Below, in pieces: positions 1-45,526 of a stretch of 64,000 bases of DNA; the first letter of the stretch is position 1; each line of letters opens with the position of its first letter. The stretch comes from Acidobacteriota bacterium. GTDB lineage: Bacteria; Acidobacteriota; Vicinamibacteria; Vicinamibacterales; UBA2999. The DNA lies in NCBI GenBank assembly GCA_020851565.1, contig JADZCN010000121.1:1-64000 (forward strand), in the 5' to 3' direction. The translations under genes and the position numbers were made by a program. The notes beneath the pieces are model-generated. The model did not search any database, was not told the origin of the DNA, and saw only the letters and a program-made list of their open reading frames with translations.

Positions 1-890
1 GATCCGGCTCCGCAGCCCCACCGGGGCGAACCTGGGATCCGAGTCGGGGCCCCTGACCGCGCAGATCTCCGTCATCGCGCCCCTCAGCGGCACCTACACC
101 GTGCTCGTCGGCACCGGCGATGTCGGCAACGACTCCATCGGCGACTACCGGCTCACCCTCGCCAAGACTCCCGGCACGTTTGTCGTCCCCGACGGCGATG
201 AGGGCGGCGCGATGGTCAACGGCGCAAACCACAGCGGCCACATTCATCTCGGCGACCTTGACCAATGGAGCTTCACCGCCGCCCAGGGCGATGCCATCAC
301 GGTCAGCATTGGTGAGGTCTTCCCGACCGAGCTCGACCCGGGCTTCAATCCCTGGATCCGGCTTCGCAGCCCCACCGGGGCGGACCTGGGATCCGCGTCG
401 GGGGCCCTGACCGCGCAGATCTCCGTCGTCGCGCCGCTGAGCGGCACCTACACCGTCCTGGTCGGCACGGGCGATGTCGGCCTCGACTCCACCGGCGACT
501 ACCGGCTCACCCTCGCCAAGACCCCGGGGCCCTTCGTCGTTCCCGACGGTGACCAAGGAGGTGCCATGAGCGCGGGTGTCAACCATCCGGGAGCCATTCA
601 CCTGGGCGACCTCGACATGTGGACCTTCTGCGCGGCCCAGGGCGCCGCGCTCTCGATCAGCATGAGCGAGATCCTGCCCTCAGGGCCTGATCCCGGATTC
701 AACCCCTGGATCCGGCTCCGGGCGCCGTCGGGTCAGCAGCTGGGCTCGACGTCGGGATCTCTGGTTGCGCAGCTGAACATCACGGCATCGGTCACGGGCT
801 TGTTCACGGTGCTCGCGGGTACGGGTGACGTGGGTTCGGATGCCCAGGGGCAGTACGAGATCAGGGTGACGGGAGCTATTGCATGTCCGA
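1..890. repeat. 354-bp tandem coding repeat (PPC-like units)
   Basis: The sequence GATCCGGCT recurs at bases 1, 355 and 709 with a constant 354-bp (118-codon) period. Units one and two are nearly identical at DNA level across the compared stretch (bases 1-190 against 355-544), while the third has diverged. This indicates recent in-frame duplication inside the adhesin-like gene, and more copies may lie upstream of the window. Confidence 0.85.
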
Positions 891-2278
891 CCGGTCCCAC
901 GACCGTCAACGACGGATACGCGACGCCCGTCAATACGTTGTTGACGGTACCCGCCCCCGGCCTGCTCGCCAACGACAACCCCAACGGCGGCGGCTCGATG
1001 ACGGCGGAGCTCGTCTCGAACGTCACCGCTGGCACGCTCGCGCTGAACGCGAACGGCAGCTTCACCTTCACCCCGACCAACGGCTTCACCGGGCAGGCGA
1101 GCTTCACCTACCGCGCCGTGAACGCGTTTGGTCCGGGCAACGTGGCCACGGTGACCCTGACGGTCACCCAGGGCACGCCGCCCACGACGGTGAACGACGC
1201 GTACGGTACGAACGCGGGCACACCGCTCAACATCGCAGCGCCTGGCGTGCTCAGCAACGACAACAGCAACGGCGGAGGCGCGCTGACCGCGGAGCTGATG
1301 AGCACGACCACCAGCGGCGTCCTGTCGCTGAGCGCCAACGGCAGCTTCACCTACACGCCCAATCCCGGCTTCATTGGCGCCGACAGCTTCACGTACCGCG
1401 CCGTCAGCAGCGTCGGGCCGGGAAACACCGCCACCGTCGGCATCACGGTCAGCGACCCGACGACGGTGCAGCCGCCATCGAGCCTATACGCGTCGTCCAT
1501 CGCCGGCAACACGGTCACGCTCCGGTGGACTCCGCCCGCATCGGGCGCAGTGCCCACCAACTACGTCATCGAGGGTGGCGTGAGCCCCGGCCAGGTGCTC
1601 GCGAGCCTCCCTGTGGGAAACACGACTCCGCTCTACACGTTCCCGGCGCCAACCGGCGCTTTCTTCGTCAGGGTGCACACGCTGTCGGGCGCCAGTCGCA
1701 GCGTGGCCTCCAACGAGATCCGCATCTTCGTGAACCAGCCGGCGGCGCCGTCGGCCCCGGCGGACCTCGTGGGCCTGGTGAACAGCAGTTCCATCGCGCT
1801 CGCCTGGCGCAACACCTTCGCGGGCGGCGCGCCTGGCGGCATCGTCCTCGACGTGTCGGGCGCGCTCAACACGTCGCTGCCGCTCGGCCTCACCGACAGC
1901 TTCCAGTTCAACGGGGTACCGGGCGGCACCTACACGCTGTCGCTGCGCGCCATCAACGGCGCCGGCAGCAGCCCCTCGTCCAACGCCATCACCCTGACGT
2001 TCCCCTCGCCCTGCACGGGCGCACCGCTCCCGCCGTCGAACTTTCTGGCCTATCGCGTCGGCGGTACCCTCTTCGTCGTCTGGGATCCGGCGACGAGCGG
2101 GCCGGCACCCACGTCCTACGTCCTGAACGTCACCGGGGCGTTCGGCGGCAGCTTCGGGACGCCTGGCCGCACGCTGAGCGGCGCGGTCGGGCCGGGCACC
2201 TACCACCTGAGCGTGAGCGCCGCCAACGCGTGCGGATCGAGCGCGGCGACGCCCGTGCAGGCCGTGGTGGTCCCATGA
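1..2278 (+). CDS. Secreted adhesin-like multidomain protein, 5' end outside window
   Basis: The frame is open from base 2, so only the C-terminal 758 or so residues are visible. In order they hold three tandem 118-residue beta-sandwich units resembling bacterial pre-peptidase C-terminal (PPC) domains (each with GDLD-x-W-x-F, NPWIRLR and GTYTVL), to about base 880. Two cadherin/Big_9-like repeats follow (VND...LLANDN...GSFTFTP...FTYRAV), about 895-1456, and then three FN3-like modules to the end. There are no catalytic motifs. The stop codon overlaps the next gene's start (ATGA at 2275-2278), so the protein is probably co-translated with the ECF sigma factor. I infer an exported surface or extracellular protein. 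The signal peptide and full length cannot be seen, and an N-terminal enzyme domain upstream is possible. Confidence 0.8.
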   Translation, partial: IRLRSPTGANLGSESGPLTAQISVIAPLSGTYTVLVGTGDVGNDSIGDYRLTLAKTPGTFVVPDGDEGGAMVNGANHSGHIHLGDLDQWSFTAAQGDAITVSIGEVFPTELDPGFNPWIRLRSPTGADLGSASGALTAQISVVAPLSGTYTVLVGTGDVGLDSTGDYRLTLAKTPGPFVVPDGDQGGAMSAGVNHPGAIHLGDLDMWTFCAAQGAALSISMSEILPSGPDPGFNPWIRLRAPSGQQLGSTSGSLVAQLNITASVTGLFTVLAGTGDVGSDAQGQYEIRVTGAIACPTGPTTVNDGYATPVNTLLTVPAPGLLANDNPNGGGSMTAELVSNVTAGTLALNANGSFTFTPTNGFTGQASFTYRAVNAFGPGNVATVTLTVTQGTPPTTVNDAYGTNAGTPLNIAAPGVLSNDNSNGGGALTAELMSTTTSGVLSLSANGSFTYTPNPGFIGADSFTYRAVSSVGPGNTATVGITVSDPTTVQPPSSLYASSIAGNTVTLRWTPPASGAVPTNYVIEGGVSPGQVLASLPVGNTTPLYTFPAPTGAFFVRVHTLSGASRSVASNEIRIFVNQPAAPSAPADLVGLVNSSSIALAWRNTFAGGAPGGIVLDVSGALNTSLPLGLTDSFQFNGVPGGTYTLSLRAINGAGSSPSSNAITLTFPSPCTGAPLPPSNFLAYRVGGTLFVVWDPATSGPAPTSYVLNVTGAFGGSFGTPGRTLSGAVGPGTYHLSVSAANACGSSAATPVQAVVVP

Positions 2279-2829
2279 CGATGGTTCCCCGCCTGGGTGG
2301 GCCCGAGGCGATGAACGTCGCCTTCGACGAGCTCTACACCGAGCTTCGGCGGCTCGCGGCGCGGCACATGCGTCGCGAGCCGGCGCGCCACACCCTGCAG
2401 CCGACCGCGCTCGTCAACGAGGCGTACCTGCGGCTGATGAGCGGGGCGAGGACCATCAACGATCGGCATCACTTCTTCGCGCTCGCCTCGCAGGTGATGC
2501 GCCGCGTGCTGGTGGATCACGCGCGCAGGAAGCGGGCGCACAAGCGCGGCGCGGAGCTGGTGCACCTCGAGGTGGACCAGCTCGCCGACGCCGGCGCGCC
2601 ACGCGTGGACGTCGTCGCCGTGGACGAGGCGCTCACCGAGCTCGCCACCGTTGATACGCGGGCGGTGCAGGTCGTCGAGCTGCGGTTCTTCGGCGGCCAC
2701 ACCGACGCGGAAGTCGCCGACATCACGGGGCGTTCGCTCGCCAGCGTGCGGCGCGACTGGGCGTTCGCCCGGTCGTGGCTGAGGCGCCGGCTCAAGCCGC
2801 TGGCCGGCGATCGCCCGGAGGAAGCATGA
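2275..2829 (+). CDS. ECF-type RNA polymerase sigma factor (TIGR02999-like)
   Basis: This is a 184-residue extracytoplasmic-function sigma factor that would direct core RNA polymerase to a dedicated promoter set. Region 2 is recognisable from ELYTELRRLAARHMRRE, TLQPTALVNEAYLRLM and HFFALASQVMRRVLVDHAR. Region 4 is seen as VELRFFGGHTDAEVADI with the helix-turn-helix SLASVRRDWAFARSWL. These are hallmarks of the TIGR02999 group, which is common in Acidobacteria and Planctomycetes and often sits beside Ser/Thr kinases instead of an anti-sigma factor. The ATG at 2275 overlaps the upstream stop (ATGA). ATG 2281 and 2311 are alternative starts. Its stop overlaps the subtilase start, again as ATGA. 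No anti-sigma gene is adjacent. Confidence 0.9.
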   Translation: MTMVPRLGGPEAMNVAFDELYTELRRLAARHMRREPARHTLQPTALVNEAYLRLMSGARTINDRHHFFALASQVMRRVLVDHARRKRAHKRGAELVHLEVDQLADAGAPRVDVVAVDEALTELATVDTRAVQVVELRFFGGHTDAEVADITGRSLASVRRDWAFARSWLRRRLKPLAGDRPEEA

Positions 2830-5072
2830 GCCGCTCGCTCATCGGGATCATCGCGTGCGTCGCTTTGGTAATGGCCCTCGCCGGTTCCACGCCGTCGACA
2901 CAGTCGGGCGTGTCGATCCCTCCAGAGCTGGCCCGCCGCGTGGCGGCGAAAGGTTCGGCCTCCGTCATCGTCGGGGTCAGCGCGCCGTTCGTGCCAGAAG
3001 GACGCCTGGCCGGTGTTGCAGGCATCGACGCGCAACGGCGCGGGCTCCAGGCGTCGCTCGACGACGTGATGGGACGCGCGTCGGCGAAAGGCATTGGTGT
3101 AGGCGGCCGGTTCGACACGGTTCCCTATTTCACGGCGCGTGTCGGTCCAGCCGAGTTGAAGGCCCTGGCGGCACTCCCCGGCGTCGCCTCGATTCACGAG
3201 AACGAGCTGTTCGCGGCGCAGCTGGCCGACACCGTCCCGCTCATCAACGCGCCTGCGTCATGGGCGGCCGGCGCCACCGGTTCGGGATGGACCGTTGCCG
3301 TCATCGACACCGGCATCGACAAGACGCATCCCTTCCTGGCGGGCAAAGTCACGAGCGAGGCCTGCTACTCGGGGGCCGGCGGGACGGCGCCGCCCGGGTT
3401 CTCGTCGGTGTGCCCCGGCGGCGTCTTCGCAAGCACGGCCCTCGACAGCGGCGTGCCCTGCACGCCGGATGCGCTCTGTGCGCACGGCACGGCCGCCGCG
3501 GGCATCGCGACGGGGATCAACGGCACCTCGGGGTTGAGCGGTGTGGCCCATCAGGCGAACCTGATTTCGATCCAGGTCACGACGAGAGTCGAGAACTGCA
3601 TTCCGGGCGGCATTCCCTGCCTGATGTTCTACGAATCCGATCTCATCCGGGCGCTCGAGCGCGTTCTCGTCCTCGCCGGGACCGGCAACGCAAACCGCAT
3701 CGCGGCCGTCTCGACGAGCGTGGGCAGCGGCCGGTTCGTCTCCCAGGCCTCATGCGACGTCTGGTTCGCGCCCCTGAAGGCGGCCATCGACAACCTGCGC
3801 TCGCTGCAGATACCGACCATCGTCTCGGCGGGCAACAACAGCTACGTCGACGGCCTCATCGCGCCGGCATGCATCTCGTCGGCGGTGAGCGTGAGCGCCA
3901 CGACCAAGACCGACGTCCTGTCCTGGTTCTCCAATCGCGCCCCGTTCCTGTCCCTTCTGGCGCCGGGAGGCGACGGAACACAGGGGCCGGGCTCCATCAC
4001 CACCTCCATGCCCGGCGGCGGGTTCGGGCTCGTGAGCGGCACGTCGTTCGCCGCCCCTCACGTGGCTGGTGCCTGGGCCATCCTCGAGCAGGCGGTCCCG
4101 GGCGCCTCCGTCTCGCAGGTGCTGTCCGCCCTCCGCAACACCGGCGCACCCATCGCGGATGCGGGGACCGCGCGCGCGTACCCGCGAATCAACGTGGAGG
4201 CGGCCCGCCAGGCGTTGCTGAGCGGCGTTCCAGGCCCGCCCGGGCCACCAGGCACGCCAGCGGTCCTGGGTGGCGGCAACTTCGTGAGCCTCAGCTGGCC
4301 GGCCCCAGTGAGCGGCGGCACGCCGGCCGGGTACACGGTGCGCGCGCGGCTCACGCCCGGGGGGCCGGTCGTCGCGTCGCTGCCTGTCGGTGAAACCCTC
4401 AGCATGGACCTCAACGCCCCGAATGGGACCTTCATCGTCTCGGTGCAGGCCAGCAATGCGGCGGGCACCGGCCCCGAGTCGCCCTCACAGACTCTGACCG
4501 TCCCGATCATCCCCGCACCGCCCGGGTCGCCGAGCGGGCTGGCCGCGGTGGTCGCCGGCTCCTCCGTGCACCTGTTCTGGACGCCGCCGACGACGGGCGG
4601 CGAGCCGATCGGCTACCTGCTCGTCGCGGCGCTGACGCCTGGCGGCACTCCTGTCGCGGGACTCACGTTCGAGGCGCCATCGTGGTGGACCACGATCCCG
4701 GGCGTTCCGCCCGGCACGTACTACCTGCGGTTGGCGGCCTTCAACCTGGGCGGCGTGAGCGCTCTTTCGAACGAGGTGGCGGCTTCGGTGGCAGCGCCCC
4801 AACTGCCGGGCCCACCAGCCCTGAACGCGCCCATCGTGACGGGCAACACCGTAAACCTGTCGTGGACGCCGGGGCCCGGCGACACCCCGTCGTCCTACAT
4901 CGTTCGGGCCTCGCTGACGCCCGGCGGTCCCGTCATCGCGGGCCTCCCTGTCGCAGGAACCGGCATCTCGGTACCCGGCGTCCCGCGTGGAACCTATTTC
5001 ATCGTCGTGCACGGCGTGACGGGCGCGGGGGTGGGACCACCCTCGAACCAGGTTACCGCGGTGGTGCCGTGA
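2826..5072 (+). CDS. Secreted S8 subtilisin-like protease with FN3 modules
   Basis: A 748-residue exported serine protease. A signal peptide (MSRSLIGIIACVALVMALAG) is followed by an inhibitor-I9-like prodomain to about residue 130. The S8 catalytic domain carries Asp161 (AVIDTGID), His220 (HGTAAAG) and Ser407 (GTSFAAPH). Three FN3-like modules occupy about residues 475-748, ending PPSNQVTAVVP. The ATG at 2826 overlaps the sigma-factor stop (ATGA) and begins exactly at the signal peptide, so I prefer it to upstream in-frame codons. The kinase gene starts 15 bases downstream. The complete triad suggests an active enzyme. The substrate is unknown, but the coupled adhesin-like protein with the same FN3 modules is a plausible partner. 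Confidence 0.93.
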   Translation: MSRSLIGIIACVALVMALAGSTPSTQSGVSIPPELARRVAAKGSASVIVGVSAPFVPEGRLAGVAGIDAQRRGLQASLDDVMGRASAKGIGVGGRFDTVPYFTARVGPAELKALAALPGVASIHENELFAAQLADTVPLINAPASWAAGATGSGWTVAVIDTGIDKTHPFLAGKVTSEACYSGAGGTAPPGFSSVCPGGVFASTALDSGVPCTPDALCAHGTAAAGIATGINGTSGLSGVAHQANLISIQVTTRVENCIPGGIPCLMFYESDLIRALERVLVLAGTGNANRIAAVSTSVGSGRFVSQASCDVWFAPLKAAIDNLRSLQIPTIVSAGNNSYVDGLIAPACISSAVSVSATTKTDVLSWFSNRAPFLSLLAPGGDGTQGPGSITTSMPGGGFGLVSGTSFAAPHVAGAWAILEQAVPGASVSQVLSALRNTGAPIADAGTARAYPRINVEAARQALLSGVPGPPGPPGTPAVLGGGNFVSLSWPAPVSGGTPAGYTVRARLTPGGPVVASLPVGETLSMDLNAPNGTFIVSVQASNAAGTGPESPSQTLTVPIIPAPPGSPSGLAAVVAGSSVHLFWTPPTTGGEPIGYLLVAALTPGGTPVAGLTFEAPSWWTTIPGVPPGTYYLRLAAFNLGGVSALSNEVAASVAAPQLPGPPALNAPIVTGNTVNLSWTPGPGDTPSSYIVRASLTPGGPVIAGLPVAGTGISVPGVPRGTYFIVVHGVTGAGVGPPSNQVTAVVP

Positions 5073-5087
5073 CGCCGTACGACTGAT

Positions 5088-7238
5088 ATGCCTCTCAGCC
5101 TCGAACGCTACGAACGCCTGCGCGCGCTGTTCGACGCCGCAGCCTCCGTGTCGCCGGATCGGCGCGAGGCGTTCATCGAGGCGGAGACGCCGGGCGACGA
5201 GACGCTGCGCGCGGAGCTGCGATCGCTGCTGGCCACCGGCGCGGCCACGGAGCTGCCGTCGCGCGTGGAGCTTTCCGCCGAGACGTCGCCCCCGCCGGAG
5301 GCACCGGCGAGGGCTCGGGTTCCAGCTCTCGGTGGCGCTGACCTCGGCGTGCAGGTCGGCCACTATCGGCTCCTGCGCGAGATCGGGCGTGGCGGCATGG
5401 GCGTCGTCTACCTCGCCGCCCGCAACGACGACGTCTTCAGCAAGGTGGTGGCGCTGAAGGTCATCGGCGCCGGCGTGATCGATTCCGAGTTCGTGAAGCG
5501 CTTCCGACAGGAGCGGCAGATCCTCGCGGGCCTGGATCACCCGAACATCGCGCGAATCCTGGACGGCGGCGACACCGCGGACGGCCGTCCGTTCTACGTG
5601 ATGGAGCACATTGCCGGCGTGCCCATCGACGAGCACTGCGCCTCGGCGCAGGCCGACGTGCGCACGCGGCTCGGGCTCTTCCGGCAGGTCTGCCTGGCCG
5701 TCGAGCACCTGCACGAGAAGGCCGTGATTCACCGTGACCTGAAACCAAGCAACGTGCTGGTGACGCCGGACGGCATCGTCAAGCTGCTGGACTTCGGCAT
5801 CGCGCGCATCCAGGGCATCGCCGGGCTGGCGTCACCCGTCTCGTCGCCAGGTCACCAGACGATGATCATGACCCCGGGGTACGCGAGCCCCGAGCAGATC
5901 GACGGGCGCGAGGTGGATAAGCCGAGCGACGTGTACTCGCTCGGCGTCCTGCTGTACCAGCTGCTCACCGGGGAACTTCCGTTTGGCGACGACCATGGGC
6001 GGCCCGACGTGTCGGCGCAGCTTTCAGGGCGCGCACCGGTGCCGCCGAGCCGTCGTGGCGCCCTCGCCGCGCGACGGTCGGATCGGCCGCCTTCCACGCG
6101 ACAGCTGCGGATCACGGCCGACCTGGATCGCGTCACGCTGGGCGCGCTCGAGAAGGAGCCGCTGCTTCGATACCCCGCCGTGCGCGCGCTGCGCGAGGAG
6201 ATCGATCGGGTGATCGAGGGCCGCCCGCTCGCCTCGCGCAGCCATCAGTGGGTCTATCGCTTCCGCCTGTTCGTCGGCCGCAACCGGGTCGCGGCCGCGC
6301 TGACGGCTCTGCTGGTCATCGCTGTCTTCGCCGGCGGTGGAGTCGCCGTGCGGAATGCCATCGATCGCGCCAGGCTCGAAGCGCGGGCCGGCGAGCTCGA
6401 GCGATTCGTCGCCTTGCTGAACGCGCGGGTCGAGCGATGGGCCGAGCCCGGCCAGCAGGTGCCGGTCGAGGACAAGCTCGCGGACGTGGCTGGTGCCAGT
6501 GCCGTGCTCTCCTCAGACGCGCTGCCGGCGCTGGCCACCCGCGATGGCGGCCGTGACCGCGCGGACCGGCTCGTCGGTGGCGTCAACCACTTCCTCGATC
6601 GCGCCGCGAACCTTGCGGGCGAGGCGGAGCTGCCCGTCAGACGATCAATCGCCCTCACCTACCGCCAGGCCGGGGATCTGCAGGCCGGCCCGCTGGCGCC
6701 ACCGGGCGGCGAGCGCGGGCAGGCCGTGACGAGCTACCGGCGTGCCGCGGAGGTCGCAGCGCGCGCTGCTCCTGCCGACGATCCATGGGTGAAGGTCCAA
6801 CTCGCTGAGCTCTCGGGGCTGCTGCAGGGTCTCGGCGCGCGGCTGGATACCGCCGGACTGGCTCCTCCTGCTGCGGGGGGCGCGGATCCAGTGGCCGCCT
6901 CCCTGCCGGCGCCAGCGGGTCCTCCTGTGCGGCGGCCCATCACGGCATCACAAGCTCCCGTCATGAATCCCGCAGAGGTCGAGGATCTCGTCCGCCAGAT
7001 CGCGCAGGTGCGCGCCACCGCCGAGCAAGTGCGCGTGAGCGTGGTGGACCTCCGCCAGCGACTCGAGGGCAACGGGCAGGTGTTGCGCGCGGATATCCCC
7101 GCGGGCATGTCGCGGGTGGATGCGTTCATCGAGGCGGCCGCGCGTGACCTCGAGCGGCGCGACGCCGGGGGTGTTCGCGACAACCTCCAGCGCGCGGGCT
7201 ACGCGCTGAAGCTCGTCGGGGAGGCCGTGGGGCGATGA
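5088..7238 (+). CDS. Transmembrane Ser/Thr protein kinase (Hanks type)
   Basis: A 716-residue bacterial Ser/Thr kinase. After about 90 N-terminal residues the catalytic domain shows the glycine loop GRGGMGVVY (from Gly100), Lys124 in VALKVI, HRDLKPSN (His215, Asp217), DFG (from Asp235) and PGYASPEQ. A single hydrophobic segment at about residues 401-422 probably crosses the inner membrane, leaving a roughly 295-residue alanine/arginine-rich, mostly helical C-terminal part outside. No PASTA repeats are visible. It follows the adhesin, ECF sigma and subtilase genes at a 15-bp gap. By analogy with ECF-kinase pairs in other bacteria it may phosphorylate and so activate the sigma factor at 2275-2829. 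That link is inference from position. Confidence 0.92.
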   Translation: MPLSLERYERLRALFDAAASVSPDRREAFIEAETPGDETLRAELRSLLATGAATELPSRVELSAETSPPPEAPARARVPALGGADLGVQVGHYRLLREIGRGGMGVVYLAARNDDVFSKVVALKVIGAGVIDSEFVKRFRQERQILAGLDHPNIARILDGGDTADGRPFYVMEHIAGVPIDEHCASAQADVRTRLGLFRQVCLAVEHLHEKAVIHRDLKPSNVLVTPDGIVKLLDFGIARIQGIAGLASPVSSPGHQTMIMTPGYASPEQIDGREVDKPSDVYSLGVLLYQLLTGELPFGDDHGRPDVSAQLSGRAPVPPSRRGALAARRSDRPPSTRQLRITADLDRVTLGALEKEPLLRYPAVRALREEIDRVIEGRPLASRSHQWVYRFRLFVGRNRVAAALTALLVIAVFAGGGVAVRNAIDRARLEARAGELERFVALLNARVERWAEPGQQVPVEDKLADVAGASAVLSSDALPALATRDGGRDRADRLVGGVNHFLDRAANLAGEAELPVRRSIALTYRQAGDLQAGPLAPPGGERGQAVTSYRRAAEVAARAAPADDPWVKVQLAELSGLLQGLGARLDTAGLAPPAAGGADPVAASLPAPAGPPVRRPITASQAPVMNPAEVEDLVRQIAQVRATAEQVRVSVVDLRQRLEGNGQVLRADIPAGMSRVDAFIEAAARDLERRDAGGVRDNLQRAGYALKLVGEAVGR

Positions 7239-7239
7239 G

Positions 7240-7288
7240 GCGCCAGCGACGCGAGGGCCCGAGCAGTCTCGCACCGCGTTGGCGCTTT
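7240..7288 (+). terminator. Weak hairpin after kinase gene
   Basis: GCGCCA (7240-7245) pairs with TGGCGC (7280-7285), with extra GC pairing inside, and TTTG follows. This could be a terminator for the 1-7.2 kb operon, but the loop is long and the T run short. Confidence 0.3.
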
Positions 7289-7327
7289 GTAGGGGAAAGA
7301 ACGAACCGAGAAGGTTGAGGAGGGGTC

Positions 7328-8644
7328 ATGAAAGGGTGCGCAAGGCGGAGCGTGGTTGGCGCGTTCATCCTGGGGGCGTGGCTGCTGGCTGGTGTCGTGC
7401 CGGCCGCGTCTGCCCAGAGTGCGGACACCCCGGTGGACCAGGTCATCGCGCTCGAGAAGAGCGGCCTCAGCGACGACCTCATCATTCGCGCGATCGCGCG
7501 CGACAAGTTACACGGGGATCTCGGCACCAGCGACATGCTGAAATTGAAGAACGCAGGCGTGTCGGACCGGGTCATCACCGCCATGACGGAAGGCCCGGCG
7601 GCAGCCCCCGCTGCCGGGGCCGCGCAGGCATCCGCTCCGGCCGGCGCCAGCTCGTTCGCGGCGGGCGGGATAGCCCCGGCGGCCAGCGCGGCGCCGATGC
7701 CGGTGGCGGTTTCGACCGTCGATCCACGCGCCTCCATGCGCCGCGCCGCCATCGACGAGTTCGACTGGGCCACGGTCTCGACGGCCGTGCAGGCCATCTT
7801 CGGCACCAACGTGGACATCGGGAAGGGCATCCGGGCCCTGCTCACCAAGCGCCTGCAGGAGGCGGGCCGGATGCGCCTGGTGGAGCGGGCGAAGGTGGAC
7901 ACGGTGATGAAGGAGCAGGACTTCGGCGCCAGCAACCGCGTGCGCCAGGGCACGAACGCGCGCATCGGGCAGATCCTCGGCGCCGATGTCTACCTCATGG
8001 GCGACATCGTCGCCTTCGGCAGGGACGATCGCGACAAGCGCATCAGCCTGGGCGCGTTCGGCTTCGGCGGGCCGCTCGGCGGCGTCCGGATCGGAAAGAA
8101 GGAAGACAAGGCGGTGGTCACCATCAACTACCGGCTCGTAGACGCCGAAACCAGCGAAGTCATCGACAGCGGCGAGGCCAAGGGCGAGAGCAAGCGCAAG
8201 AGTAGCGGACTCGGCGGCATCTTCGGGTGGTCCGGCGGCGTGGTCGGCGGCAGCGTGGACATGACCAGCCAGAACTTCGCGGAGACCATCATCGGCGAGG
8301 CGGTCATCGAGGCCACCGACCGGATTGCCGCGATCATGAACGAGAAGGTGCCCGGCCTGCCGAAGCGCGAGGTGGACATCGAGGCGCGCGTCGCCGCCGC
8401 GTCGGGCGGATCCATCACCATCACCGCCGGCTCGAACCAGGGTGTCGAGGTCGGCCATCAGTTCGACGTGTTCCGCATCGTCGCGGAAATCAAGGACCCG
8501 GTGACCGGCGAAGTGCTGGACAACGAGGTCGAGCAGTTGGGAGTCATGACCGTGTCCTCGGTGCGGGAGCGCATCGCCACCGGGGCTTATGCGGGTAAAC
8601 CGGTGACCAGCAAGGACGGACTCGTGCGCCGGCGGCTGCCCTAG
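7328..8644 (+). CDS. CsgG/HfaB-family exported protein
   Basis: A 438-residue protein with a signal peptide ending near VVPAASAQS. It has no lipobox cysteine, unlike classical CsgG. A short helical N-terminal region (VIALEKSGLSDDLIIRAI and LKNAGVSDRVITAM) resembles a duplicated helical motif. A CsgG-like domain runs from about residue 145 to 345 (RMRLVERAKVDTVMKEQDF, GQILGADVYLMGDIVAFG, VTINYRLVDAETSEVIDSGE), followed by a C-terminal beta domain. CsgG relatives form outer-membrane or periplasmic oligomers for export of surface material. Transport here is inferred. The start is supported by the strong AGGAGG site 4-5 bases before ATG. The gene lies 89 bases after the kinase operon and may be separately expressed. 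Confidence 0.82.
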   Translation: MKGCARRSVVGAFILGAWLLAGVVPAASAQSADTPVDQVIALEKSGLSDDLIIRAIARDKLHGDLGTSDMLKLKNAGVSDRVITAMTEGPAAAPAAGAAQASAPAGASSFAAGGIAPAASAAPMPVAVSTVDPRASMRRAAIDEFDWATVSTAVQAIFGTNVDIGKGIRALLTKRLQEAGRMRLVERAKVDTVMKEQDFGASNRVRQGTNARIGQILGADVYLMGDIVAFGRDDRDKRISLGAFGFGGPLGGVRIGKKEDKAVVTINYRLVDAETSEVIDSGEAKGESKRKSSGLGGIFGWSGGVVGGSVDMTSQNFAETIIGEAVIEATDRIAAIMNEKVPGLPKREVDIEARVAAASGGSITITAGSNQGVEVGHQFDVFRIVAEIKDPVTGEVLDNEVEQLGVMTVSSVRERIATGAYAGKPVTSKDGLVRRRLP

Positions 8645-8676
8645 GGGCCACGGGCAGCGCTCGAAGGGAGTCCATC

Positions 8677-9636
8677 ATGCACGGCCTGGCATTGACACTG
8701 CTGCTGTTCATCGGCATGACTCCGCGCGAAGCAGCGGGCGGCCCGGCGGCGCCGTCGAGCGAGCAGTCTGCAGTGCAGGCGCAACAGGACGGGCTCGACC
8801 GGGATTTGCGCGAGCTCGAGGCACGGCTCGGCGCAGGGCGCGTGAACGCCGCTCAGGTGGTGGCCGACAGCCAGCGTCTTCGGCAACGGTTCCTGGCCCT
8901 TCACCCATTCGCGCCGCGCTTCGGCCCGGACGACTATCGTCGCCACGGCCAGCTTGCCGGACGCTCGTTCGCGTGGCTGTCCGGCGTGAGCGGCCGCTTT
9001 CGCGGCGACCGGCACGTCGTGCCGGCGCTCGTGAGCGCCTATTCCGTCATCGGCGACTTCTACGGCACGAGCGGCCTCGCCTCCCGCTCGGGCTTCTGGT
9101 TTGGCTATGCGGGCGCGCACCGCGCCGCCCGCTCGCTGGCCCTGGCCGGGCAAGGCGACCGGGCTTTGGACCGAACGCTGGAGTCGCTCGCCCTGAGCTG
9201 GGCCCTCGTCGCGGCCATGGATCCGCGCTCGCGCTGGGCCTGGTCTGGCTGGGATGGGGCGCGCCCTGGCTTCGAGCAGACTATTGACCAGGCCGTGGCC
9301 CGCGGGCCGGTGCCCCCCCCGCTGGCGCTCCCGGCCGTGGACGAGGCGGCGCTGTCCCCGGACGATCGATCCCGTTGGCACGAGGTGCGCGATCGATTTG
9401 CCGGCGCCTCGAGCCGGGCACACGAGGCACAGCTGGCGCTGGCCGACTTGCGCGGCCGCCTGGCTGCACGTGGGTTGTCGCTCCATCCAAGAAGCGTCGC
9501 CGCCTCGCTCGGCATGCAGGGCTACCTCGACGATGCTATCGACGCCATCGAGGCGCGCCAGTTCGACCGTGCCCTGCAGGCCCTGATACGGGCCGACTAC
9601 GAGCGCGCGAAGCTCAGGGACGCCACCGGGCAGTGA
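8677..9636 (+). CDS. Hypothetical secreted protein
   Basis: A 319-residue protein I do not recognise. It begins with a short hydrophobic stretch (MHGLALTLLLFIGM) that could be a signal peptide or anchor. The remainder is mostly helical, rich in Ala, Arg and Leu, with two coiled-coil-prone segments at about residues 25-70 and 225-265. The central section is aromatic-rich (FWFGYAG, WAWSGWDG). An AAGGGAG-type ribosome site precedes the ATG. It lies 32 bases after the CsgG-like gene on the same strand, so the two are probably co-transcribed and it could be an accessory envelope protein. No enzyme motif is visible. Confidence 0.65.
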   Translation: MHGLALTLLLFIGMTPREAAGGPAAPSSEQSAVQAQQDGLDRDLRELEARLGAGRVNAAQVVADSQRLRQRFLALHPFAPRFGPDDYRRHGQLAGRSFAWLSGVSGRFRGDRHVVPALVSAYSVIGDFYGTSGLASRSGFWFGYAGAHRAARSLALAGQGDRALDRTLESLALSWALVAAMDPRSRWAWSGWDGARPGFEQTIDQAVARGPVPPPLALPAVDEAALSPDDRSRWHEVRDRFAGASSRAHEAQLALADLRGRLAARGLSLHPRSVAASLGMQGYLDDAIDAIEARQFDRALQALIRADYERAKLRDATGQ

Positions 9637-9670
9637 GGCGATCGGTCACCCGCTCGGGGCCGGGGTCGAG

Positions 9671-9676
9671 TAGAAT
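9671..9676 (+). promoter_or_regulatory. Candidate -10 box (TAGAAT) for molybdoenzyme gene
   Basis: TAGAAT matches the TATAAT consensus at four of six positions. It lies 22 bases before the ATG at 9699, and GAGGGAG in between can serve as the ribosome site. No clear -35 is visible. Confidence 0.35.
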
Positions 9677-9698
9677 CGCTCCCCCAGAGGGAGTGACC

Positions 9699-10862
9699 AT
9701 GGCGAACGAAACGACGCGTCGGGACATGTTGAAGAGAACCGGGTTCGCGGCCGCAGGCCTCGGCGTGCTGGGCGTGCCCGAGTGGGCGTTGCCCGCGCTG
9801 GCCCAGGGCGAGACCCTGGTACCGTTCACCGACTGGCCGGCCAACTTCAACCCGAACCCCGCGCCGGATCGGCGCCTGTTCAACACGCAGACCATCGCCG
9901 GCGCCGTGACGCCGGCGGATCAGTTCTTCACGACGCAGCACTACGGCCATCCCGTCGTGGACCCCGCGACCTATCGCCTGAAGGTGTCGGGCCTCGTGAA
10001 CTCGTCGCTCTCGCTCTCGCTCGACGAGATCCGGAAGATGGGGAACGCCGAGATGGAGCTGGGCTTCGAGTGCTCGGGCAACCGCCGGCCGCTGCAGGGC
10101 CTCATCGGCAACGGGCGCTGGACCGGCGTGCCGCTCAAGACGGTGCTCGACAAGGCAGGGCTCAAGGCCGAGGCACGCGAGATCGTGTTCTTCGGCGCCG
10201 ACAAGGGCCCCGAGGAGGTTGAGTTCCGCGCGCAGAAGTTCAACGTCGAGCAGCAGTACGGCCGCAGCATGCCGCGCGACAAGGCACTCACCAGCGAGGC
10301 GTTTCTCGCCTACGCCCTCAACGGGCAGCCGCTCACGCGCCACCAGGGGTCGCCCCTCCGCCTCATCGTCCCGGGTTGGTACGGTGCGCCGAACGTGAAG
10401 TGGCTGGCCGAGATCCACGCCCAGGAGGATCAGTACCTGGGCAAGTTCCAGGCGCGCTGGTACCGGACGCTCAAGGGCGAGATGATCAACGGCGAGATGA
10501 AGTGGGTCGAATCCGCCATCACCCACCTGCAGCTGAAGTCGTTCGTCGCCCGGGTGACGAAGGCGGGAAGCTCGCACAAGGTGCTGGCCGTCGTCCTGAA
10601 CGACGGCACGCCGATCAAGTCGGTCGAGCTCAAGGTCGACGACGGGCCGTGGCAGGCGATGACGGCCGACCCGTCCACGAAGGCCAGGTACGGCTGGAAG
10701 TTCTACAACTACACGTGGAACGGCGCCGCACCCGGTGAGCACACGCTGGTGTCGCGCGTCACCGACGCCACGGGCCGGGTGCAGCCGACCGAGCAGGAGC
10801 TCGAGAACAAGAAGACGTTCCTCGAGGACAACTCGCAGCACCCGCGGAAGGTGACTGTGTAA
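9699..10862 (+). CDS. Tat-exported molybdopterin-dependent oxidoreductase (sulfite oxidase/YedY family)
   Basis: A 387-residue enzyme of the sulfite-oxidase fold. A twin-arginine signal (RRDMLKRTGFAAAG...ALPALAQG) shows export of the folded, cofactor-loaded protein to the periplasm. The molybdenum-ligating cysteine is Cys125 in FECSGNRRP, and the cofactor-binding Oxidored_molyb region continues through VPGWYGAPNVKWL. The C-terminal about 110 residues look like the Ig-like Mo-co dimerisation domain (VELKVDDGPWQAM, GEHTLVSRVTDATG). The presence of this dimer domain fits sulfite-dehydrogenase (SorA-like) better than MsrP/YedY, which lacks it. No cytochrome partner or MsrQ gene is adjacent. The ATG at 9699 is chosen because it begins at the Tat signal and has GAGGGAG upstream. 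Confidence 0.9.
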   Translation: MANETTRRDMLKRTGFAAAGLGVLGVPEWALPALAQGETLVPFTDWPANFNPNPAPDRRLFNTQTIAGAVTPADQFFTTQHYGHPVVDPATYRLKVSGLVNSSLSLSLDEIRKMGNAEMELGFECSGNRRPLQGLIGNGRWTGVPLKTVLDKAGLKAEAREIVFFGADKGPEEVEFRAQKFNVEQQYGRSMPRDKALTSEAFLAYALNGQPLTRHQGSPLRLIVPGWYGAPNVKWLAEIHAQEDQYLGKFQARWYRTLKGEMINGEMKWVESAITHLQLKSFVARVTKAGSSHKVLAVVLNDGTPIKSVELKVDDGPWQAMTADPSTKARYGWKFYNYTWNGAAPGEHTLVSRVTDATGRVQPTEQELENKKTFLEDNSQHPRKVTV

Positions 10863-31288: not shown

Positions 31289-34200
31289 ATGTCAAGACGA
31301 ACGACTCGAGTGCTGCACGGAATGGCCGGCTTCTTCCTCAGCCTCGCCCTGGGCGGGCAGGCCTCCGCCGACCCGGTCACGAGCTCCACCCTCGGCTGGG
31401 CCATCAACGGCATCGTCAGTGAGGTGGCCCGCGCGGGCGATGTCGCCTTTGTTGGCGGCTCGTTCGGCACGGTGGCGCCGGCGCCCAACCTGGTTCACGG
31501 CTTCGCGACGTTCGCCACCGATTCGGCGGTCCCGGTGCTGCCAAGCCTCGACGTCAATGGTCGCGTGCGTGCAGTCGTGGCCCTGCCCGGGGGCGGGTGG
31601 CTCATCGGCGGCGAGTTCACGCAGGTGAACGGTCAGGCGCGCAGCCGCATCGCCCGCCTTCTCGCAGACGGCACGGTCGACTCCGGGTTCTCGGTCTCGA
31701 TGAACGGGACGGTCTGGGCGATGGCCGCGAGCGGCACGCGTGTCTTCCTCGGGGGCTCGTTCACGACGGTGAATGGCTCGCCACGCCTTCGGATGGCCGC
31801 GCTCGACGCCGCGACGGGGGCCCTCGACGCCACCTTCACGCCGGACGTCGAAGGCGGCTCCAGCCCGTCGGTGCGCAGCCTCGTCGTGGCCGGTGGCTCC
31901 GCGTACTTCGGCGGCTCGTTCGCGATGGTCAATGGCGCCTCGCAGGCCAACCTCGGCGCGGTGGACGCGACCACGGGCGATTCCGTGGCCGGCTTCACCG
32001 GCACGGCAGACGGCCGCATCAACGCGCTCGTCGCCAGCGGCACGTCGGTGGTGGCCGCGGGCGAATTCATGAACATCGGTGGCGAAGCGCGTCGGGGCGT
32101 GGCGCGCCTGGTTGCCGCGACGGGCCTGGCCGATGCGGCGTTCGATGCCGGCGCCGACGGCGACGTCGCCGCGGTGGCCTTGTCGGGCACGACGGTCTTC
32201 GTCGGCGGGTCGTTCGGGCACATGGGAGGCCAGCCGCGAGAGCACCTCGCGCAGCTGAACCTCGCCGACGGCAGCGCGACGCCGTGGAATCCCGGTGCCG
32301 ACGCCGACGTTCAGAGCCTGGCGCTCGCCGGGACGGCGCTCGTGGTTGCCGGCGACTTCGACGAGATCGGTGGCGCGGAGCGCCTGTACCTGGCGGCGCT
32401 CGATGCGACGAGCTCTGCCGGCGCCGCCCTGCCCTGGAACCCATCGCTCAACGACGGCGCCGACTTCGCCCACGTGGACGCGGCGGGCCACGTGTTCACG
32501 TCTGGCAGCTTCAACTTCTTCGGCGCGGTGAAGCGCGAGAACCTGGCGGCCATCGACCTGCTGACCGGCGAGCTGCTGCCGTGGAATCCGGGCGCCAACG
32601 GCTGGATCCGCGCGCTCGACGTCCTGGGTAACACCGTGTACATCGGCGGCGACTTCACGACGATCGGCGGCGAATCGCGTGCGCACATCGCCGCGCTCGA
32701 CGTGGTGACTGGCGCGGTGTCGTCCTGGACCGCCGAACCCAACGCGCGTGTGAACGGGCTGATGGTCTCGGGCAACGCGATCTACTTCGTCGGCGAGTTC
32801 TCGCAGGTGAAGAACAGCACGTCGCGCGGCCGCGGTGCAGCCGTGGCCACAGACGGCACGGTGCTGCCATGGAACCCCGCGGCCAATGCGGCCGTCGAGT
32901 CGCTCTTCGTCGAGGGCGACCGCGTCTACCTGGGCGGCGACTTCACCACCCTGGGCGGCGTGTCGCACGAGCGGCTCGGAGCCGTGGACGTCACGACGGG
33001 CGCCGAGGTCACGGCCTTTGCGCCATCGGTGAACGGCCCGGTGTATCGGGTGGACGCCCAGGACGGCCTCGTCTTCTTCGGCGGCGATTTCAGCCTCGTG
33101 AACGGCTCCACGCGTGACAACGTGGCGGCGGTGAAGGCCGCGCCCGGCATGGTGGACGACGGAGAGCTGCAGGGCTGGAATCCGCAGGTGGGCGGCCCGG
33201 TGTACGACATCGACGCGTTTGGTGACGACGTGTACCTGTCTGGCGGGTTCGGCTCGGTGGGCGGGGAGTCGCGTCCCGGGATTGCCATGGTGGACGCGCT
33301 CGCGAGCGGCGGGGCGGTCCGCGCGTGGGAACCGGAAGACGTGAGCGGCGGCGCGGTTTCGGTGATCGACACCTCCGAGACGGCGGTGCTGTTCGGGGGC
33401 CTGCTGAACGATCTCGACGGCATCAGTATCGGCGCCGTGCTCTACCCCGAGGCTGGCCTCGTGGGAGCGCCGCCGCCACCAACCACACCGGAGATTCTCG
33501 TCCGCGGCTCGCGGCTGACGATGACCTGGAATGCGCCGCCGCTCGGTGCCAGGCCCTCCGCGTACGTCATCGAGGGCGGCAGCGGGCCTGGCGGCCGGAA
33601 CCTGGCGAACTTCTCTACCGGCAGCACCGACACGTCATTCACCGCCAACGGGCTCGCCGCCGGTACCTACTTCGTGCGGATGCGCTCGGCGAACGCCTTC
33701 GGCGTCGGCGCAGCGACCCTGGAGCAGGCGGTGGTGGTGGGCGCGGCGGGATGCTCGGGGCCGCCGGCGCCGCCGCTCGACGTTCGCGCATCGGTCAACG
33801 GGTCGTCGGTGACCGTCACGTGGCGCGAAGCGCCCCAGTCGATCGCCACCTCGTACCGGCTGATCGCAGGCACGGCCAGCGGCAGCAGCAACGTCGGTAC
33901 CTTCGACGTGGGCGCGACCACGTCGTTCTCGACCACCGCGCCTCCGGGGGCGTACTTCGTGCGCGCGCAGGCCGTGAACCCGTGCGGCGCGGGGGCGCCG
34001 TCGGCCGAGGCGGTCGCGGTCGTGGGCAGTGTGGCCGTGCCGCCGGGACCGGTCTTCGCACTGTCAGGCGGCGCCTCGGGATCGACCGTGTCGCTCGAGT
34101 GGGCCGCCCCGTCGGTAGGGACCGGCCCCTTCCAGTACCGCGTGGAGGCGGGCAGCGCCTCGGGGCTCTCGAATCTGGCGACCCTGACGGTGCAGGCGCC

Positions 34201-34312
34201 GGCATTCGTGACCGCCGGTGTGCCGCCGGGCATCTACTACGTGCGCGTGCGCGCCATCACCGCGGCGGGCGTGGGCCCGGCAGGGAACGAGATCATCGTC
34301 GTCGTGCAGTGA
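31289..34312 (+). CDS. Secreted delta-60-repeat beta-propeller protein with FN3 modules
   Basis: A 1007-residue exported protein. The signal peptide is HGMAGFFLSLALGGQASA. From about residue 40 to 700 it is made of some fourteen repeats of about 48 residues with the core GG-x-F-x-x-(V/I)-(N/G)-G followed by L-A-A-L-D, the delta-60 (DUF5122) propeller pattern. Three FN3-like modules end the chain (GTYFVRMRSANAFGVG, GAYFVRAQAVNPCGAG, GIYYVRVRAITAAGVG), finishing AGNEIIVVVQ. No catalytic motif is seen. The in-frame ORF extends further upstream through the acylase gene, but the signal peptide fixes the start at 31289. It probably has a structural or adhesive role outside the cell. Confidence 0.87.
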   Translation: MSRRTTRVLHGMAGFFLSLALGGQASADPVTSSTLGWAINGIVSEVARAGDVAFVGGSFGTVAPAPNLVHGFATFATDSAVPVLPSLDVNGRVRAVVALPGGGWLIGGEFTQVNGQARSRIARLLADGTVDSGFSVSMNGTVWAMAASGTRVFLGGSFTTVNGSPRLRMAALDAATGALDATFTPDVEGGSSPSVRSLVVAGGSAYFGGSFAMVNGASQANLGAVDATTGDSVAGFTGTADGRINALVASGTSVVAAGEFMNIGGEARRGVARLVAATGLADAAFDAGADGDVAAVALSGTTVFVGGSFGHMGGQPREHLAQLNLADGSATPWNPGADADVQSLALAGTALVVAGDFDEIGGAERLYLAALDATSSAGAALPWNPSLNDGADFAHVDAAGHVFTSGSFNFFGAVKRENLAAIDLLTGELLPWNPGANGWIRALDVLGNTVYIGGDFTTIGGESRAHIAALDVVTGAVSSWTAEPNARVNGLMVSGNAIYFVGEFSQVKNSTSRGRGAAVATDGTVLPWNPAANAAVESLFVEGDRVYLGGDFTTLGGVSHERLGAVDVTTGAEVTAFAPSVNGPVYRVDAQDGLVFFGGDFSLVNGSTRDNVAAVKAAPGMVDDGELQGWNPQVGGPVYDIDAFGDDVYLSGGFGSVGGESRPGIAMVDALASGGAVRAWEPEDVSGGAVSVIDTSETAVLFGGLLNDLDGISIGAVLYPEAGLVGAPPPPTTPEILVRGSRLTMTWNAPPLGARPSAYVIEGGSGPGGRNLANFSTGSTDTSFTANGLAAGTYFVRMRSANAFGVGAATLEQAVVVGAAGCSGPPAPPLDVRASVNGSSVTVTWREAPQSIATSYRLIAGTASGSSNVGTFDVGATTSFSTTAPPGAYFVRAQAVNPCGAGAPSAEAVAVVGSVAVPPGPVFALSGGASGSTVSLEWAAPSVGTGPFQYRVEAGSASGLSNLATLTVQAPAFVTAGVPPGIYYVRVRAITAAGVGPAGNEIIVVVQ

Positions 34313-42520: not shown

Positions 42521-45500
42521 TTGAACATCCGCCGCGCAGTGTCCCTGCTGGTCGGCGCATATGCGCTCTGGGGAGCGCTTCATGGACAGGCGGCGCAGTC
42601 GCCGGCGCCTGCCCTCCTGGCCGAGCCGCCGGCTGGCGTTGCGTTGCCAGTCGTGGACGCCTTCGCGACTGTGGGGTCGGTCGACACCCGCGTGGTTTCC
42701 GTCAATCTCGCCGCCCTCGATGCCGATGCGGTGGACATCGCCGTCGACTCCACCCTGGCCTTTCGGGCGGTCATCGATTCGCGGATGCCCAACCCGGACG
42801 GCTCGGAATCGTGGGTGGGACATATCGCTGACCACCCGCTGAGCGCCGCCACGTTCGTCCGCACCGGCACGCTGCTCCAGGGCTCGATCCGCACGCTCGA
42901 TGCCGCGTACACGATCGAGCCCATCACCGGCAGCGCCCTCCATCTCGTCCGGCAACTGGACCTCTCCGCGCTCGGCGCCGAGCTTCCTCCCCTCGTGCCG
43001 GGCGTCCTGCCGGACCTTGCCCAGGATCCTCCACCGCTGCCGCTCGACGATGGAACGACGTTCGATGTGCTGGTGGTCTACACGGCGGCCGCCCGGGCCG
43101 CCGCGGGCGGCACCGACAGCGCCATCCAGGCGCGCATCACCCTCGGCATCACCGAGACCAACAGCGCGTATGCGAACAGCGGTATCATCCCGCGCCTCCG
43201 ACTGGTCGGGGCCGAGCCGATCGACTACGCCGAGAGCGGGAGCCTTACGACGGACCTGGATGCCATCACCAACACCGCCGATGGCCTGATGGACGGCGTG
43301 CACGCCCGGCGCGACGCGCTCGACGCGGATCTCGTGAAGCTCGTCGTCGGGAGCGCCTCGGGCGGTGCCTGTGGCGTCGCCTGGCTGATGCAGTCGCTCT
43401 CGTCCGGCTTCGCCAGCTACGCGTTCAGCGTCACGGCCTATCCCTGCATCAGCCCGAACTACACGTTTGGCCATGAGCTGGGCCACAACATGGGGTCGGC
43501 TCACGCGCCCGAGGACGGCACCAGTCCCGCGCCTCTCTACGATTACTCGTTCGGCTACAAGCAACCGGGGAACATGTTCCGGACGGTGATGGCCTACAAC
43601 TGTCCCGTGAACTGCCCGCGCATCCTGTACTTCTCCAACCCCGCGGTGTCGTACAGCGGGCAGCCGACGGGCACGGCGGCGCAGCACGACAACGCCGCCT
43701 CCATCAACGCCGCGCGGAACACCATCGCCAACTGGCGCCAGGCGGCGGCGCCGAACACGCCTCCCACGATCACCGCGCTGAGCGACCGGACCATCGACGA
43801 GGATGCCGTCACGCCTGCGCTCGCGTTCACCGTGGGCGACGCACAGACGCCGGCGGCCAGCCTCTCAGTCACGGCCACATCGTCGAACACCGCGATCGTG
43901 CCGAACACGAGCGCGGCACTGGCGCTCTCTGGAAGCGGCGCAAACCGGGCCCTCACCGTCACGCCTCTCGCGAACCAGTTCGGCACCACCACCATCACCG
44001 TGACCGTGAGCGACGGCTCGCTGAGCGCGTCGAGATCCTTTCAGCTGAACGTCACCGCGGTGAACGACCCGCCGACCATGTCCGGCGTGCCACCGCTCGT
44101 GTCGACGACGGTGGGCGTCGCCACGAGCTTCGCGGTGACGATCGCGGACATCGACACGCCGCCCGGCAGCCTGATGGTGTCGGCGGTCACGACCAATGCC
44201 ACCATCCTCCCGCCCGGCGGCATCCTCGTCACCCAGCAGTCGTCCACCGCAACGACACGGACGTTCCTGGTGGCGCTCACGCCAGCGCCGGGACAGAGTG
44301 GCTCCGGCGGCCTCGTCGTGACGGGCAGCGATCAGTCGGCCGGCCTCTCGGTGCCTGTCGCGTTCAATGTATCGGCGGTCGCCACGGCACCGGATCCGCC
44401 GACGGCTGCGACGGCCACCGCGTCCGGCTCGTCGGTCACCGTCGGCTGGACCGCGGCGCTCACCGGCTCAGCGCCCTCGAGCTTCGTCGTCGAGGCAGGC
44501 ACGGCGCCCGGGACCACGACACTGCCAACCGTGTCGGTGCCCGCCCCTGCCGCGCAGGCAACGCTCGACCTGCCAGCCGGGATCTACTACGTGCGCGTCC
44601 GCTCGGTGAACGCCGTCGGCGCCAGCGCCCCATCGCCCGAGGTCACGGTGACGGCGGTCGAGCCTGGCCCCATCCCCGGCCCGCCCGGCATGTTCTCGGC
44701 GCGAACCGCGGGGACGACGGTCATCTTCACGTGGACCGCACCCACGCTGGGCGAGCCGCCCACGCACTACGTACTCGAGGCCGGCAGCGCGCCTGGACTG
44801 TCGAACCTCGCATCGATCGGCACGGGCAGCGTCAGCTCATCGTTCAGCGTTCCCGCCGTGCCGCCCGGCACGTACTGGGTTCGGGTGCGCGCGGCGAACG
44901 CGGCCGGTGTCGGCGCACCATCGCAGGACGTATCGGTCGTGATGGGGCCCGCAGGGGGATGCGTGGGCCTGCCGGGTCCGCCGGTCCTGCTCACGCCAAT
45001 CGTGTCGGGCAACTCGGTGACGCTCGCGTGGAATGCGCCGGCGCAGGGCGGCGCGCCCGCCACCTACGTCGTCTTCGCGGGCCGCCAGCCCGGAGGGTCA
45101 GACCTCGCGTCGTTCAGCACCGGATCCGCGAGCACGTCGTTCGTCGGATCCGCACCGGACGGCGTGTACTTCGTGCGCCTGGCGGCCAGCAACGCCTGCG
45201 GCGTCGGCATCGCGTCGAACGAAATGAGCTTCGCGCTGGGTTGGGACCCACCCCAGGCGCCGCAGGGGCTGACCTGGTCGCTCGCGGGCGGTGGCGAGGT
45301 GGCCCTGTCGTGGCAGCCGCCCGCCGGCGGCGGAGCGCCGACCGCGTACCTGCTCGAGGCCGGCTCGGGCCCAGGGCTCGCGGATCTGGCCAACATTCCG
45401 ACCGGAGGGCCCGGAACCACGCTCTCGGCGTCGGCCCCTGCCGGCACGTATTACGTTCGCGTGCGCGCGCTGATCGGCGCCAGCCGCGGTCCCGCGTCGA

Positions 45501-45526
45501 ACGAGGTCGTCGTCATCGTCCCCTGA
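42521..45526 (+). CDS. Secreted M12-type metalloprotease with Ig-like and FN3 modules, paralogue 1
   Basis: About 1001 residues. The signal peptide NIRRAVSLLVGAYALWGALHG is best read from TTG 42521. ATG 42479 or 42437 would add an atypical extension. A propeptide-like domain is followed by a reprolysin-like domain with the zinc motif HELGHNMGSAH from His318. Next come a cadherin/Big-type domain (ITALSDRTIDEDAVTPALAF), one more beta domain and four FN3-like modules ending PASNEVVVIVP. The catalytic residues are complete, so it is probably an extracellular endopeptidase. The paralogue at 45592 shares the order but has fewer repeats, which indicates tandem duplication. Confidence 0.92.
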   Translation: MNIRRAVSLLVGAYALWGALHGQAAQSPAPALLAEPPAGVALPVVDAFATVGSVDTRVVSVNLAALDADAVDIAVDSTLAFRAVIDSRMPNPDGSESWVGHIADHPLSAATFVRTGTLLQGSIRTLDAAYTIEPITGSALHLVRQLDLSALGAELPPLVPGVLPDLAQDPPPLPLDDGTTFDVLVVYTAAARAAAGGTDSAIQARITLGITETNSAYANSGIIPRLRLVGAEPIDYAESGSLTTDLDAITNTADGLMDGVHARRDALDADLVKLVVGSASGGACGVAWLMQSLSSGFASYAFSVTAYPCISPNYTFGHELGHNMGSAHAPEDGTSPAPLYDYSFGYKQPGNMFRTVMAYNCPVNCPRILYFSNPAVSYSGQPTGTAAQHDNAASINAARNTIANWRQAAAPNTPPTITALSDRTIDEDAVTPALAFTVGDAQTPAASLSVTATSSNTAIVPNTSAALALSGSGANRALTVTPLANQFGTTTITVTVSDGSLSASRSFQLNVTAVNDPPTMSGVPPLVSTTVGVATSFAVTIADIDTPPGSLMVSAVTTNATILPPGGILVTQQSSTATTRTFLVALTPAPGQSGSGGLVVTGSDQSAGLSVPVAFNVSAVATAPDPPTAATATASGSSVTVGWTAALTGSAPSSFVVEAGTAPGTTTLPTVSVPAPAAQATLDLPAGIYYVRVRSVNAVGASAPSPEVTVTAVEPGPIPGPPGMFSARTAGTTVIFTWTAPTLGEPPTHYVLEAGSAPGLSNLASIGTGSVSSSFSVPAVPPGTYWVRVRAANAAGVGAPSQDVSVVMGPAGGCVGLPGPPVLLTPIVSGNSVTLAWNAPAQGGAPATYVVFAGRQPGGSDLASFSTGSASTSFVGSAPDGVYFVRLAASNACGVGIASNEMSFALGWDPPQAPQGLTWSLAGGGEVALSWQPPAGGGAPTAYLLEAGSGPGLADLANIPTGGPGTTLSASAPAGTYYVRVRALIGASRGPASNEVVVIVP

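Follow-up and report, generated by a model that had tools for sequence, protein, structure and literature searches.

The ECF sigma factor gene near the start of contig JADZCN010000121.1 belongs to a conserved unit, in which it is followed by genes for a transmembrane Hanks kinase, a CsgG-like secreted protein and a secreted all-helical protein, P6. In the source genome a subtilase gene has been inserted between sigma factor and kinase. We hold it reasonably probable that this is an ECF43-like operon whose sigma factor is switched by phosphorylation, and whose kinase senses the envelope together with P6 and the CsgG-like protein. The interesting part of the locus is downstream of the interval first reported: the CsgG-like and P6 genes, located beyond it, are the conserved partners of sigma factor and kinase.

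Organization of the locus

The window, that is the whole stretch of 64,000 nucleotides analysed here, starts at base 1 of the contig (C121), and six genes, all on the plus strand, are found at positions 2–9636. The first (2–2278), whose 5' end is missing at the contig start, encodes a secreted protein with PPC, Big_9/cadherin-like and FN3 domains and so agrees with its initial annotation as an FN3/PPC adhesin-like gene. The sigma factor gene (2275–2829) and the gene for a secreted subtilase of family S8 (2826–5072) each begin in an ATGA overlap with the preceding gene (sigma ATG at 2275, FN3 gene end at 2278; subtilase ATG at 2826, sigma end at 2829), and 15 bp separate the subtilase end at 5072 from the kinase ATG at 5088. 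These four genes, their two overlaps and the 15-bp spacing are located as previously described. The kinase gene (5088–7238) is followed by the CsgG-like gene (7328–8644) and by P6 (8677–9636). Pfam and NCBIfam scans identified no anti-sigma gene among the six, as had been noted for the shorter interval. No recognisable Shine-Dalgarno sequence was found for the sigma gene, which is therefore probably translationally coupled.

An ECF43-like sigma factor and its kinase

The description of the sigma factor as TIGR02999-like was borne out by a score of 187.9 bits, against a cut-off of 126 for that family, and by a match to PF07638 (E 1e-45). The acidic motif of region 2.2 is the usual RNA polymerase binding element in sigma factors. 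Region 2.2 of the window sigma reads HTLQPTALVNEAYLRL, and the residues Q42-P43-T44-A45 (2398–2409, plus strand) stand where the acidic DxxD is usual. Comparison of this region with ECF43 sequences, suggested in the initial annotation, thus gave QPTA, with a Thr at the phospho-position and no acidic residues. The ECF43 consensus is QTTA, with the phosphorylated Thr third (the position of EcfK T51; PMC13147305), and both EcfP and EcfK are phosphorylated at the position that matches Thr44, the predicted phospho-acceptor of the window sigma. Thr or Ser occupies this third motif position in 55 of the 59 sigma relatives aligned. The linker that joins region 2 to region 4, AELVHLEVDQLADAGAPRVD, where EcfK has the phospho-site T106, includes acidic residues and neither Ser nor Thr when read as a whole. 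The N-terminus is unusually short: the profile match begins at position 14–15, and the usual N-terminal helix is absent. The notion that the adhesin gene had destroyed this N-terminus was dropped as unproven, several relatives having variable N-termini.

The downstream kinase matches PF00069 (E 3e-43), with intact GRGGMG, HRDLKPSN and DFG motifs and one transmembrane segment near residue 400, and is thus a transmembrane Hanks kinase as annotated. Its extracytoplasmic tail, from about residue 425 (6363–7238), is all-helical in the model and matches no Pfam family. Such pairs are common. The source genome includes about 16 TIGR02999 sigma genes, and 15 of the 16 have a kinase nearby, mostly directly downstream. 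Among 63 sigma relatives from several phyla, 52 have a kinase gene on their own strand no more than 3.5 kb away (44 downstream, 8 upstream). Pairing with a kinase is therefore the ordinary state of the family. The window sigma can accordingly be described as a putative ECF43-like factor, a label that rests on the TIGR02999 score, the QPTA motif, the adjacent Hanks kinase and the local absence of an anti-sigma gene; it is paired with a transmembrane kinase and has no adjacent anti-sigma gene.

Conservation of the unit and decay of its sigma factor

The order sigma, kinase, CsgG-like, P6 was found in the window, in the sister MAG KLAP208 (locus L109) and in G022, and the complete unit is known from these three loci only; the key genomes are draft assemblies. 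G022 belongs to the same family as the source genome, its sigma factor is 58% identical, and both FN3 genes are absent from its locus. The KLAP208 contig ends inside the sigma gene, at residue 116, so that the stretch upstream of that is not covered. The CsgG-like gene, the sole PF03783 match in the source genome, follows the kinase in L109, L070 and L181. Together these comparisons point to sigma factor, kinase, CsgG-like protein and P6 as the conserved unit. In both the source genome and KLAP208, P6 is followed by a molybdopterin oxidoreductase gene (window 9375–10862; its counterpart is Oxidored_molyb).

Between the window and KLAP208, the kinase (92% identical, dN/dS 0.14), the CsgG-like protein (91%, 0.07) and P6 (83%, 0.20) are under purifying selection, as is the C-terminal part of the sigma factor (dN/dS 0.14, from 60 codons only).

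In G068, from another family of the order, kinase, CsgG-like and P6 genes are preceded by a decayed sigma ORF of 90 amino acids. It matches the sigma profile at positions 5–66 and then weakly at 166–185, and its motif has decayed to RAAA. This fossil (L181:5392–5664) is a TIGR02999 remnant that has lost about 100 residues, and the intact kinase-CsgG-P6 genes follow it directly. The kinase module has outlived its sigma factor in G068, and the kinase must therefore already act on a different target or be capable of acquiring one.

It follows that kinase, CsgG-like protein and P6 could be a functional module with a different target, the sigma factor being an ancestral neighbour that is turning dispensable and is perhaps little used in the window. 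Besides the G068 fossil, the window sigma itself would fit such a reading, since it has no N-terminal helix of the usual kind and is no longer coupled directly to the kinase. However, its C-terminal part is under purifying selection, its motif and HMM score are intact, and G022 retains the sigma gene; we therefore consider this reading unlikely, and favour a sigma factor that is still part of the phosphorylation-switched operon.

P6 is a secreted paralogue of the kinase tail

No Pfam family matches P6, and PDB sequence and fold searches with it gave no usable match. When a P6 profile (4 sequences) was aligned to a profile of kinase tails (5 sequences), hhalign returned a probability of 96.8% (P 3e-10, 278 columns), whereas four controls with reversed or column-shuffled tails gave at most 0.9%. 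The P6 and kinase-tail HMMs also find each other reciprocally (1e-10 and 1e-7). Direct BLASTP of P6 against the window kinase tail gave no match, the homology being visible by profiles only. AlphaFold models of the two, built from shallow alignments and with mean pLDDT of 76 and 72, have the same layout, in which some six helices are followed by a disordered linker and then by three helices at the C-terminus. P6 is thus a secreted paralogue of the extracytoplasmic domain of the kinase. Of 162 genomes of the order, 4 carry it; a fifth match falls in a kinase tail.

The subtilase as a later insertion

The gene between sigma factor and kinase is, as annotated, an FN3 subtilase: it matches PF00082 (E 4e-31), has the catalytic motifs (DTG, HGT, GTSFAAPH), an N-terminus that resembles a signal peptide and C-terminal FN3 repeats, and is preceded by a strong Shine-Dalgarno sequence. 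Alignment of the window DNA to KLAP208 gives one clean gap of 2,284 bp, and the window segment opposite it (2797–5080) comprises the subtilase gene and a new C-terminal tail of the sigma factor. In KLAP208 the sigma stop and the kinase start are 1 nt apart (TGA-c-ATG), and a fossil of this old stop is seen directly before the kinase ATG of the window (5081–5087, plus strand; ACTGAT in the window, AACTGAC in KLAP208). The subtilase is missing between sigma and kinase in G022 as well, where the unit is otherwise complete, and its presence is therefore the derived state. The gene is a later insertion. Repeats at the insertion edges, as expected of a target-site duplication, were looked for and none were found.

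Homologues of the subtilase in the source genome (C71), KLAP208, G003, G024 and G001 are located at other sites, never beside a sigma or kinase gene. Those of the source genome, KLAP208 and G003 have a common setting, with a multi-TM gene on one side and, on the other, an opposite-strand gene and then a gene that is of Omp85 type in the 2 cases tested. In the source genome and KLAP208, one opposite-strand gene separates this second subtilase-FN3 gene (L145:3825–5081, L146:9463–10725) from a member of the Omp85 superfamily (PF01103). Both genomes keep this copy, 80% identical between the two, while the window subtilase is 51–55% identical to all homologues and branches apart as a divergent extra copy.

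That the subtilase entered this position as an assembly chimera is highly improbable. The assembly is fragmented (171 contigs) and FN3 genes are abundant and repetitive in it, but the junctions coincide precisely with the end of the sigma gene and the beginning of the kinase gene, an ATGA overlap and a Shine-Dalgarno sequence are in place, and the subtilase is a complete ORF that is a copy of no other gene in the genome (best match 53–54%). On the insertion reading, the subtilase would be co-expressed with the operon as a passenger. The insert has broken the direct coupling of sigma and kinase, so that the window sigma could be on its way out.

In the initial annotation, adhesin, sigma factor, subtilase and kinase were proposed as a self-contained circuit for surface sensing, with putative secreted cargo and a protease supplied by the operon itself. 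The tight ATGA overlaps, the strong Shine-Dalgarno sequence of the subtilase and the FN3 modules common to adhesin and subtilase speak for it, as do the FN3-capped secreted genes located next to further sigma-kinase units, both within the genus and in G024. Yet the adhesin-sigma-S8-STK order is absent from KLAP208, the closest strain, from G022 and from every other locus examined, the subtilase is missing from both of these loci and has homologues that never adjoin a sigma gene, and the adhesin has many paralogues. A lack of conserved order beyond close strains is what the initial annotation had named as refuting its proposal. The circuit is thus very unlikely, and for the subtilase it is largely refuted. 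The subtilase insert and the G068 fossil give a view of how sigma-kinase units are dismantled and invaded; they also warn that tight ATGA overlaps are poor proof of shared function.

FN3-capped genes near sigma-kinase units

In the source genome the adhesin gene belongs to a group of about 20 paralogues, and FN3-family genes number about 48. These have differing N-terminal domains (subtilase, FG-GAP, beta-propeller, PPC/Big_9) and share C-terminal FN3 repeats; examples of such gene regions in the window are 1472–2275, 4221–5069, 33350–34306, 44024–45511 and 46774–47658. Many end in VVP or a similar sequence at the stop codon. The shared repeats may serve these proteins as a tail for sorting or anchoring.

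An FN3-capped gene is the direct neighbour of 4 of 16 sigma-kinase units in the source genome, of 4 of 16 in G024 and of one in KLAP208, with varying orientation and N-terminal domains. In G024, a divergent FN3 gene lies between sigma and kinase, or the kinase is upstream of the sigma gene with a divergent FN3 gene (L149, L150). A gene-neighbour estimate, based on approximate gene counts, gave 3 such neighbours against 0.26 expected in the source genome without the window (p ~0.002) and 4 against 0.32 in G024 (p 0.0003). A position-based test was weak (p 0.007–0.036 with the window locus, 0.05–0.15 without). These figures are suggestive of FN3 proteins as outputs of sigma-kinase units.

Proposed mechanism

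In the operon that we favour, the outer helical domain of the kinase, its paralogue P6 and the CsgG-like protein would together read the state of the envelope, P6 either competing with the kinase tail or bridging to it. The active kinase would phosphorylate Thr44 of the sigma factor, by analogy with EcfP/PknT and EcfK/PknS, and phospho-Thr44 would give the negative charge needed for RNA polymerase binding. The sigma factor would then activate the operon that encodes it, and possibly also genes for FN3-type secreted proteins. For the signal input, the strongest candidates are the kinase outer domain, its paralogue P6 and the CsgG-like protein. In a more specific version, which is tentative and rather doubtful, the kinase with its outer sensor domain, P6 and the CsgG-like protein would be a novel kind of envelope-sensing input for phospho-activated sigma factors; soluble P6, as decoy or co-receptor for the kinase tail, would set the state of the kinase, and FN3-capped secreted proteins would be a recurrent output of such sigma-kinase pairs. 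What activates the Hanks kinase in the model pairs is poorly understood; a review states that PknT 'somehow' senses polymyxin stress. An operon with a secreted paralogue of the kinase outer domain and a CsgG-like partner is a concrete, testable candidate for kinase input.

Comparison with known systems

The literature searched yielded nothing useful on ECF-kinase operons of Acidobacteria or on a system that combines CsgG, kinase and sigma factor. EcfP/PknT of Vibrio parahaemolyticus and EcfK/PknS of Xanthomonas citri are known pairs in which the kinase phosphorylates, and thereby activates, an ECF43 sigma factor. The window pair resembles them in a sigma factor with Thr at the phospho-site in place of an acidic region 2.2 motif, and in a Hanks kinase gene alongside with no anti-sigma gene. 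Unlike them, the window operon adds the CsgG-like and P6 genes and the subtilase insert, and its acidic region 2–4 linker appears to lack the Ser/Thr cluster of EcfK.

With the TIGR02999/PF07638 sigma-Hanks kinase pairs of Acidobacteriota and Planctomycetota it shares the family and the sigma-then-kinase order, but differs in the tail of its kinase, a divergent helical domain whose secreted paralogue is encoded in the same operon. The CsgG-like protein matches PF03783 and is secreted, like CsgG/LpoB-like periplasmic or outer-membrane proteins; unlike theirs, its gene is linked to a kinase operon, and no curli genes were recognised among the neighbours. The sigma-kinase pair itself is of an ordinary kind, and the locus is a novel variant of the already known ECF43-type sigma-kinase unit.
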